64,000 nt of DNA. Source: Halopenitus malekzadehii. Its GTDB lineage: Archaea > Halobacteriota > Halobacteria > Halobacteriales > Haloferacaceae. A program made the translations under genes and the position numbers. Shown one piece after another: positions 53,364-55,613 of the stretch; position 1 is the first letter of the stretch; each line of letters begins with the position of its first letter. The stretch is taken from contig NZ_FNWU01000001.1 in the NCBI RefSeq assembly GCF_900108505.1, positions 186,001 to 250,000 of the forward strand. The letters run 5' to 3'. Under the pieces are notes generated by a model that was given only the letters and a program-made list of their open reading frames with translations, was not told where the DNA came from and ran no database searches.

Positions 53364-54563
53364 CTATCGGATGACGTCGAGTCCGTTCTGCTTCTCGGTC
53401 GGCTCGGTGCCGCCGTCGGACTCCCAGCTTGCGGCGTCGGCGCTGCCGGTCGCGCTCGTTCCGCCTGCTCCACCGGGCCCGTCGTTGGCGTTCGTACCGT
53501 CGAGACTGGCACGGGAGCGGTCGGCCTGCTTCTGGGTCGAGGGACCCAGTACCTGTGCGCTCTGAACGCCGGTCATAATCGCCATCACGCGAACCTTCCC
53601 CTTGTACTCCTCCTGGATGCGCGCGCCCCAGATGACGTTGGCGCTGGCCTCCAGGCGTTCGGTGATGTTGTTCGCGATCCCTTCGGCCTCCTTGAGCGTT
53701 AGGTCCGGACCGCCAGTGATGTGGACCAGCCCGCCCGAGGCGCCGCGGTAGTCGACGTCCAACAGGGGGTGGTTCATCGCGTCGTTGACGACCTCCTGGG
53801 TCTTGTTCTTGTCCTGGGTCTCGCCGACGAGCATCACCGCGACGCCGCCCTGGTTCATGATCGTGGACATATCTGCGTAGTCCAGATTGATGAGCGACGG
53901 CTGGGTGATCGTTTCGGAGATTCCCTTGACGGTTTCGGCGATGATTTGGTCCATCACCGAGAACGCTTTCCCGATCGGCAGGTTCGGGACGTAGTCGAGG
54001 AGGCGGTTGTTGTCCAGTACGATGATCGAGTCGGCCTCGTTACGGAGCTCCTCAAGGCCCTCCTCGGCCTTGACGGTCCGGGCACGCTCGACGTTGAACG
54101 GGGTCGAGACCATCCCGACCACGATCGCGCCCTGCTCTTTCGCGATCTTCGAGACGACCGGCGCGGCGCCGGTCCCGGTCCCGCCGCCCATCCCGGCGGT
54201 GACGAACACGAGGTCCGCGTCGCCGAGGACGTCCTTGATCGTCCCCTGGGCCATCTCGGTTGCGCGCTCGCCCATCTTGGGGTCGCCGCCCGCACCGAGC
54301 CCCTGGGTGAGGGACTTGCCGACGAGGATCTTCGTGTCGGCCTCGATCATCTTCAGGTGCTGTTTGTCGGTGTTGATGGCGACGGTGTCGGCGCCGTCCA
54401 CGCCGATGTTGTACAGCCGGTTGATCGTGTTGTTCCCGGCTCCGCCGGCGCCGACGATGACGATCCGCGGATCGCCGAACTCGTCGTCCTCGTCGGCGTC
54501 GACGTCCATCTCACGCTGTTCGGATTCCGCGTTGGCGAGGGCGTCCTGAACGATGTCCTGCAT
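53364..54563 (-). CDS. ftsZ2: Cell division protein FtsZ2
   Basis: Polymerising GTPase of the division ring, in haloarchaea acting with FtsZ1 and SepF. The 399-residue protein has an acidic N-terminal tail, [27 protein letters not shown], the tubulin signature [13 protein letters not shown], the T7-type synergy segment with NLDYADM, and a C-terminal tail ending QKNGLDVIR. The gene follows cdrS by 2 bp on the same strand, the known cdrS-ftsZ2 operon of haloarchaea; with FtsZ1 elsewhere, this is the FtsZ2 type. Confidence 0.95.
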
Positions 54564-54565
54564 CG

Positions 54566-54748
54566 TTACACCTTCGCCCAGCTGCGCTCAGTGCGCCGAC
54601 GGCTGTTGTATTCGCCGTCCTGTTCGTTCAACATCTCACGGACCGCCGACCGGATCGCCTCGCTCCGGTTCGGGAACTCGCCCGTTTCGACCATCTGTTC
54701 GACCTCCTCTATCTGCTGTTTCGGGATTCGTAGTGTCACACGCTCCAT
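54566..54748 (-). CDS. cdrS: Cell division regulator CdrS (ribbon-helix-helix)
   Basis: Small DNA-binding regulator of 60 residues. [42 protein letters not shown] is a ribbon-helix-helix domain: N-terminal strand, then two helices. The start at 54748 is preferred to 54754 on alignment with other CdrS. In Haloferax, CdrS controls cell-division and morphology genes and is co-transcribed with ftsZ2. The region before it carries several GTAAGAC elements, candidates for CdrL or CdrS binding. Confidence 0.93.
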
Positions 54749-54761
54749 TGTCATTCCCCCG

Positions 54762-54916
54762 GTAAGACGGTGACATCGCGTGTCATTGGGTCTTACACAC
54801 GTAAACCGCCGGACGGCGAGTCGATCGCCGCCGCGGCGGCCGTCTGTAAGACGACCGTCTTACGCAGATGAACGCACAGATGGAAGATACTTAAAAGTAC
54901 CGCCCGTTGTAAGACG
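54762..54916. promoter_or_regulatory. GTAAGAC site array in the cdrS-ftsZ2 promoter
   Basis: Four GTAAGAC sites lie in the 217-bp gap between cdrL and cdrS. They are GTAAGACGG (54762-54770), its inverse GTCTTAC (54790-54796), a perfect 18-bp inverted repeat GTAAGACGACCGTCTTAC (54846-54863), and GTAAGACG (54909-54916). Between the last two lies TACTTAAAAGTA (54888-54899), whose minus-strand TTTTAA is the probable TATA. So sites bracket the promoter and reach the start codon region. CdrL binds this promoter in Haloferax, so these are candidate CdrL/CdrS sites. Confidence 0.65.
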
Positions 54917-54965
54917 TCATCGGAAAAACGGCGTATACGAGCCGAACAACCCTGTTTACACCGTC

Positions 54966-55613
54966 CTAGGGGTTATCGAGGACGTCGGCCGCAGGGGTTC
55001 TTCGGCCACAGCCGGGACAGAACGCCCAATCCGACCGGATCTCGTCGCCGCATTCACAGAACACGCGATGCGATCGCTTTTCCCCGCAATTCGGACAGTA
55101 AACGTGGTCTTCCGGCATTTCATCACCACAGCTTGCGCACGTTTTACGGTCCGTTTGCGCACGTTCAGCCGACTCATCCCCGTGTGTCATACGCTCGTCG
55201 GTCATCGTCGATCGGTCGGCGTCCTCGTCGGTTTCGACGGCCGACTCGTCGGCACGAACCCCGTCGAGTGTGACGTTTACGCTGATCTCGGACCCGCTCG
55301 CGGGCGTATACGCGCCGTGATCGGGTGTGGCCGGTCGACCGAGTCGGTCGTCGAGTGCCGCATCCAGCCGATCGGCGATCAACTCGTCGACACGGTCGGC
55401 GATCGTGGCGTCGATCCCGCTTGCGGTCTCCGAGCTCTCCCCCGTCGACGATCCGGATCCTGCAGTCACGTCCCGTCCGGGCTCCCCGTCGGCCGGCTCG
55501 GCCGACTCGAGATAGGTGCGCAACGCCTCGCGCATCACCTCGCTTTTGGAGGCGTCGTACTCCTCCAACCGCTCGACGAGGTCGTCGGCGGCGCGGAACG
55601 TGATCTTGCTCAT
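54966..55613 (-). CDS. cdrL: Cell division regulator CdrL (RHH with zinc ribbons)
   Basis: Regulator of 215 residues. The N-terminal ribbon-helix-helix MSKITFRAADDLVERLEEYDASKSEVMREALRTYLES binds DNA. A helical linker (IADRVDELIADRLDAALDDRLG) may dimerise. The C-terminus carries two zinc ribbons: CASCGDEMPEDHVYCPNCGE and CECGDEIRSDWAFCPGCG. In Haloferax CdrL controls the cdrS-ftsZ2 operon. The ATG at 55613 begins before the RHH and lies 29 bp from the TATA-like ACTTATAG, so it is leaderless. It is upstream of cdrS on the same strand, 217 bp apart. Confidence 0.93.
   Translation of the reverse strand: MSKITFRAADDLVERLEEYDASKSEVMREALRTYLESAEPADGEPGRDVTAGSGSSTGESSETASGIDATIADRVDELIADRLDAALDDRLGRPATPDHGAYTPASGSEISVNVTLDGVRADESAVETDEDADRSTMTDERMTHGDESAERAQTDRKTCASCGDEMPEDHVYCPNCGEKRSHRVFCECGDEIRSDWAFCPGCGRRTPAADVLDNP

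Follow-up and report, generated by a model that had tools for sequence, protein, structure and literature searches.

The closest described systems are those of two haloarchaeal proteins, CdrL and CdrS. CdrL is termed an RHH protein, is confined to haloarchaea and gave one reproducible ChIP-seq site in Halobacterium salinarum, located in the region upstream of cdrS-ftsZ2 (PMC7439475). Neither a motif nor a palindrome or inverted repeat is mentioned in the text of that paper, and the H. salinarum CdrL peak has no published motif. The ChIP available for Haloferax is that of CdrS, with 18 sites, and the promoter of cdrS itself is not among them (PMC8406309). The initial annotation of the present region, made from the letters alone, took CdrL to be known to act on this promoter in Haloferax; the organism in which this was seen is H. 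salinarum. The regulation of archaeal division genes is poorly known. A full-text search of open-licence papers for GTAAGAC together with archaea returned nothing relevant, and a search of the same literature for later CdrL papers found none. As far as we found, the cis-acting code of this central haloarchaeal division operon is new relative to the open-licence literature, and a description that we have not seen is possible.

The window analysed here is a 64-kb stretch of the Halopenitus malekzadehii genome. The identities of cdrL, cdrS and ftsZ2 (Table 1) are secure from their profile matches. The cdrL product matches the Pfam profiles CdrL_M (E=9e-8), DZR (E=3e-7) and Zn_Ribbon_1 (E=1e-8), and in the CdrL alignment the N-terminal segment is conserved and shows the RHH pattern. 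RHH proteins are encoded at or near the site, by cdrS and by the N-terminus of cdrL. The second ATG of cdrS, at 54748, gives the start MERVTLRIP, which is shared by 146 of 146 relatives. In RHH proteins generally, alternate residues of the strand face the DNA. Here they read K-T-R in CdrL and R-T-R in CdrS, one residue differing; the position before ITFR/VTFR is K in 138 of 138 CdrL sequences and that before VTLR is R in 146 of 146 CdrS sequences. In one genome of Haloferax, another FtsZ2-like gene is present in addition to ftsZ2 (L261, G116:C19:12177-13277), with 80% identity to the FtsZ2 of the window, at a locus devoid of GTAAGAC.

Table 1. Genes and sequence elements of the cdrL-cdrS-ftsZ2 locus (positions in the window; a point marks an element without strand)
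Feature	Position	Strand	Remarks
ftsZ2	53364..54563	-	directly downstream of cdrS; Tubulin E=2.7e-44, FtsZ_C E=1e-35
cdrS	54566..54754	-	62-aa RHH protein; RHH_1 E=2.9e-8, above cut-off
Leader box 2	54762..54768	+	GTCTTAC in gene direction; just before Shine-Dalgarno-like GGGGGA
Leader box 1, GTAAGAC	54790..54796	-	5' untranslated region; position common to Halorubrum, Haloferax and others
Core inverted pair, GTAAGAC-N4-GTCTTAC	54846..54863	.	about +4 to +21 from predicted start (~54866, minus strand)
Core box 2	54846..54852	+	GTCTTAC in gene direction; sequence match, promoter alignment
Core box 1, GTAAGAC	54857..54863	-	sequence match, promoter alignment
TATA box, TTTTAA	54891..54896	-	TTTTATA-type element in aligned promoters
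Upstream box	54909..54915	-	GTCTTAC in gene direction, GTAAGAC on +; about -49 from predicted start, ~20 bp before TATA box
cdrL	54966..55613	-	RHH domain (MSKITFR...), linker, double zinc ribbon
Second intragenic box, GTAAAAC	55141..55147	-	degenerate, weak; R-K-T beside zinc ribbon
Distal intragenic box, GTATGAC	55186..55192	-	in cdrL, encodes R-M-T; GTAAGAC encoding R-K-T in relatives

The gap between cdrL and cdrS (54755-54965), flanked by minus-strand genes, contains five GTAAGAC boxes, and these are all the GTAAGAC sequences of the window on both strands. Four had been counted initially, in a description that itself sums to five, and a sixth box lies inside cdrL. The perfect 18-bp inverted repeat that had been reported is present as two perfect 7-bp arms; the 4-bp spacer (GACC) is itself not symmetric. 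With 51 copies of GTAAGAC in the 3.14-Mb genome, 0.0033 would be expected in 206 bp, and the probability of at least five is approximately 3.5e-15. A shuffle test of the 64 kb (5 found, 2.6 expected) would miss the array because the signal is the clustering. This weak test is the sole point in favour of a chance or compositional clustering of boxes, an explanation that is refuted by the probability above together with class-wide conservation and to which we give practically no credence.

The exact palindrome GTAAGACNNNNGTCTTAC is found in 121 of 148 genomes of the family and in 233 of 292 haloarchaeal genomes of the class (63 of 77 genera). A sample of the phylum has it in 24 of 33 haloarchaea and in none of 164 non-haloarchaeal genomes, which parallels the distribution of CdrL. 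The control, the palindrome read backwards, gave 0 matches in the family, class and phylum searches. Each matching genome carries a single copy, at cdrS-ftsZ2, except for G082 and G071. The former has the sole second exact palindrome of the class sample (L179, G082:C1:32069-32086), which is intergenic with no cdrL or cdrS nearby and may be due to chance. G071 has two cdrL-cdrS loci (L180, L181), each with the full array, and is possibly an assembly of two strains.

Promoter architecture was compared in 146 distinct cdrS upstream sequences, which are not phylogenetically independent, many being from Halorubrum and Haloferax. Core pairs with exact arms are separated by N4 (110 sequences), N5 (23) or another spacer between N2 and N6 (5). 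The second box of the remaining 8 is mostly GTATGAC or GTCATAC, in some of them in direct orientation. When the box is relaxed to GTA-N-GAC, a short pseudo-palindrome with a variable central base, the core pair is present in 144 of the 146, and its boxes are spaced by about one helical turn (start to start 11 bp in 110, 12 bp in 26 and another distance of 9-13 bp in 8). At least five GTA-N-GAC boxes occur in 113 of 146 promoters, and 144 have a box 19-32 nt ahead of the MERV ATG. Loci with the array include named Haloferax, Halorubrum, Haloarcula, Halovivax, Halorussus and Actinarchaeum, and the array of Haloferax marinum (L135) is complete. The sites are thus conserved throughout the class; a lack of conservation had been named at the outset as grounds for rejecting the operator. 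In two Haloarcula-type leaders (L114, L119), GTAAAC repeats stand where others have leader box 1, and these are perhaps decayed or altered boxes.

The boxes flank the conserved TATA box on both sides, in agreement with the operator array that the initial annotation had placed in the cdrS-ftsZ2 promoter; the TTTTAA it had put near 54892 on the minus strand is located at 54896-54891. Across 138 aligned promoters, a TTTTATA element occupies positions -32 to -26 relative to the core pair (first three columns 93-97%), and a near-invariant GC sits just before the pair. The usual distance from TATA box to start is approximately 26 bp. Combined with the position of the TATA box, this distance predicts a transcription start near -3 from the core pair. 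The strongest site, which had been proposed to sit at the start, would be located just downstream of it. As the predicted transcript starts just before the inverted repeat, the pair could also be read as a hairpin that the cdrS-ftsZ2 mRNA forms at its 5' end, and not as a DNA site. However, the second box is in direct orientation at 10 bp in three promoters (L109, L160, L162), no compensatory changes are seen in the arms, and the 7-mer is also found singly, both upstream of the start and within cdrL. The inverted orientation is not kept throughout, and the hairpin is largely refuted; we regard it as extremely improbable.

Upstream of the TATA box, 118 boxes, from most lineages, have an offset of -52 ± 1 from the core, five helical turns from the pair. 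Boxes with another offset tend to be displaced by one or more whole turns, and the clusters of all upstream boxes are near -42, -52, -63, -74, -85, -94 and -114. The distinct offsets fit a period of 10.5 bp (R=0.71, p ~3e-5). Adjacent offsets are in part dependent on each other, some matches may be due to chance, and the phase relative to the core is inseparable from that relative to the TATA box. Helical phasing was not found for the leader boxes (p 0.5) or the intragenic box (p 0.3). The spacing of the pair by about one turn and the phasing of the upstream box favour the possible cooperative binding that the initial annotation had named.

The promoters of the CdrS targets ftsZ1 and hisB contain GTC-N-GAC-N4-GTC-N-GAC, one base per box from the array; we derived this motif from the two promoters and not from the published logo. 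The ftsZ1 pair is consistent with the published -50 distance, and ftsZ1 in the window's own genome carries a GTC-N-GAC pair too (L288). For dacZ, footprinting within Haloferax revealed a block in which a single GTCAGAC box stands close to the published position; footprinting in the family as a whole yielded no clear motif. The ftsZ1 and hisB pairs suggest that RHH dimers of the CdrS/CdrL group read such boxes, and their identical N4 spacing suggests that the array consists of CdrS-like boxes in which C is replaced by A. The core pair of the window has the geometry of the ftsZ1 pair, and position 3 is A in all five intergenic boxes. These boxes may therefore be weak sites for CdrS, which would act in negative autoregulation when it is abundant. 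In favour of this are the shared geometry with a single base difference, the presence of CdrS in 29 of the 30 genomes in which it was sought, its invariant RHH strand, the location of the upstream box where CdrS activates, and the survival of the array in genomes with no detected CdrL. This reading conflicts with the absence of the cdrS promoter from the ChIP sites of CdrS (PMC8406309), though the N-terminal tag used adjoins the DNA-binding strand. It also conflicts with the promoters themselves, since 118 of 146 contain no GTC-N-GAC whatever, so that the A seems to be under active maintenance. We consider CdrS, second to CdrL, a possible, although rather unlikely, main reader.

Sites of the CdrS type were also seen at other genes. 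In Haloferax marinum (L282, G123, 1501-1518), GTCCGAC-N4-GTCGGAC precedes an Orc1/Cdc6-like gene (Cdc6 lid and AAA domains), which hints that such sites may also touch replication initiation. A pair (GTCCGAC-N4-GTCTGAC) is located upstream of a CetZ gene in G016 (L281; CetZ_C E=1e-82). In the genome of the window, a pair of the CdrS type is accompanied at about 50 bp by one GTAAGAC (L280, G000:C21:21469-21531), upstream of a carB-like gene that by appearance encodes the large subunit of carbamoyl-phosphate synthase.

The reading we prefer is a multi-box RHH operator for cdrS-ftsZ2 that is read mainly by CdrL, to which we assign a probability of roughly 0.55. A palindrome that is nearly unique in each genome fits the single CdrL ChIP site (PMC7439475). 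The Pfam profile CdrL_M matched 234 of 292 genomes and misses true CdrL proteins, so absence of CdrL was not judged from it. No CdrL was detected by a CdrL profile (E≤1e-5) or by the RHH peptide (E≤1) in G016 (genus g16; 3 contigs, 99% complete) or in two Actinarchaeum genomes (L145, L146), and in none of the three does a cdrL adjoin cdrS. Their arrays are intact, and the array is thus not restricted to genomes in which cdrL is found. CdrL could have diverged beyond detection in these genomes. Among 15 non-haloarchaeal genomes of the phylum, the CdrL profile was negative in 9 and matched only the zinc-ribbon part in 6. The proposal that the array is the recognition sequence of CdrL holds as regards the operator; that CdrL is the binder is plausible but not secured, given the intact arrays of G016 and the two Actinarchaeum genomes, where CdrL was not detected, and given that the CdrS sites share the geometry of the array with one base changed per box. 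Lineages of this kind are natural tests of the reader.

The same genomes could point to a third haloarchaeal regulator that reads the array and recruits CdrL, as the CdrL ChIP signal could be indirect. However, a pseudo-palindromic box is already explained by the two RHH proteins of the locus, and no further candidate was found; we regard a third regulator as improbable. CdrS and CdrL might instead act jointly, as mixed or alternating dimers on hybrid boxes with one triplet each. The box does consist of one GTA and one GTC triplet, midway between the GTC/GTC box of CdrS and a GTA/GTA box. RHH heterodimers are, as far as we know, rare, and the array is retained where CdrL is not detected, so joint reading would be a distinctly remote prospect. 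One triplet of each box is GAC, half of a CdrS-like box, so CdrS could bind it, which counts against the preferred reading by CdrL.

Beyond the gap, GTAAGAC recurs mainly at one spot in cdrL, approximately 280-373 bp before the core. This intragenic box has a single orientation and is read in one frame in 105 of 107 cases, as CGT-AAG-ACx (Arg-Lys-Thr). It is located in the unconserved linker of CdrL, ahead of the zinc ribbon. The Arg codon is CGT in 107 of 108 cases, compared with 15.5% for Arg elsewhere in these genes (Fisher 2e-80, uncorrected for phylogeny). CGT before Lys is rare in other genes (1 of 104 in 400 kb of G016 and 6 of 60 in flanking genes). The near-invariance of this codon and its rarity before Lys elsewhere point to selection on the DNA. 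The window and a locus of the same genus (L065) differ in the residue (R-M-T with GTATGAC and R-K-T with GTAAGAC, respectively) and both retain GTA-N-GAC. About one quarter of loci have no intragenic box; in several of these, an additional box stands in the intergenic region instead, near -103 to -115. The array predicts a control box inside a gene and under selection at the coding level, and as far as we found this box in cdrL is undescribed.

We propose that the gap is a multi-box operator for RHH dimers that would govern the cdrS-ftsZ2 promoter throughout haloarchaea. Each 7-bp GTA-N-GAC box, a pseudo-palindrome of GTA and GTC triplets around a free central base, probably binds one RHH dimer. 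The core pair has its boxes 11-12 bp apart and lies just past the predicted start, where its occupancy would obstruct the transcription complex and so repress. cdrS is reportedly highly transcribed in Haloferax, so this repression cannot be constant. The upstream box, located where CdrS sits at ftsZ1 and in phase with the core, could serve in activation or form a bridge to the core. The leader boxes and the distal cdrL box would be extra docking points, perhaps for looping. CdrL as the most likely reader would place the division operon under homeostatic control, with CdrS kept at lower affinity by the change from C to A in each box. What the sequences show directly is the boxes, how these are conserved, spaced and phased, and the selection at codon level; the binding protein, the start position, repression and looping are deduced. 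We also consider, as a speculation that is probably wrong, a code with two keys: CdrS would read GTC-N-GAC genome-wide, CdrL and CdrS, as mixed or competing dimers, would read GTA-N-GAC at their own operon, and the box embedded in cdrL, dictating an otherwise needless Arg-Lys-Thr, would loop to the core promoter. If this were true, one base per box would separate a local switch from a global regulon. The array provides the exact bases to mutate.

Intragenic operators that act by looping are known from lac O2 and gal. The cdrL box resembles these in its location inside a coding region, hundreds of base pairs from the core operator. It differs in being archaeal and inside the gene of its own presumed regulator, with looping putative. 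NikR of Escherichia coli, which is among the PDB matches of CdrS, is an RHH protein whose operator (GTATGA-N16-TCATAC) has a half-site resembling the GTATGAC variant; its spacer is 16 bp, and the protein has a nickel-binding tetramer domain, of which no equivalent was found in CdrS or CdrL (PMC7055735). aCcr1 of Saccharolobus is likewise an RHH regulator of an archaeal division gene, as it represses cdvA, but it belongs to another lineage with ESCRT-type division (PMC7617429). The CdrL binding region of H. salinarum is the same promoter and a single genomic site; there it is known as a ChIP peak only, whereas an operator at the level of boxes is proposed here from sequence (PMC7439475). The CdrS regulon motif of Haloferax volcanii (PMC8406309), in the form derived above, shares with the array two 7-bp pseudo-palindromic boxes 11 bp apart and an RHH reader, and at ftsZ1 also the box ~20 bp before the TATA box. 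It has C at the third base where the array has A, and many sites per genome in contrast to one exact pair. The array, in addition, extends across the start and includes boxes in the leader, farther upstream and within cdrL.
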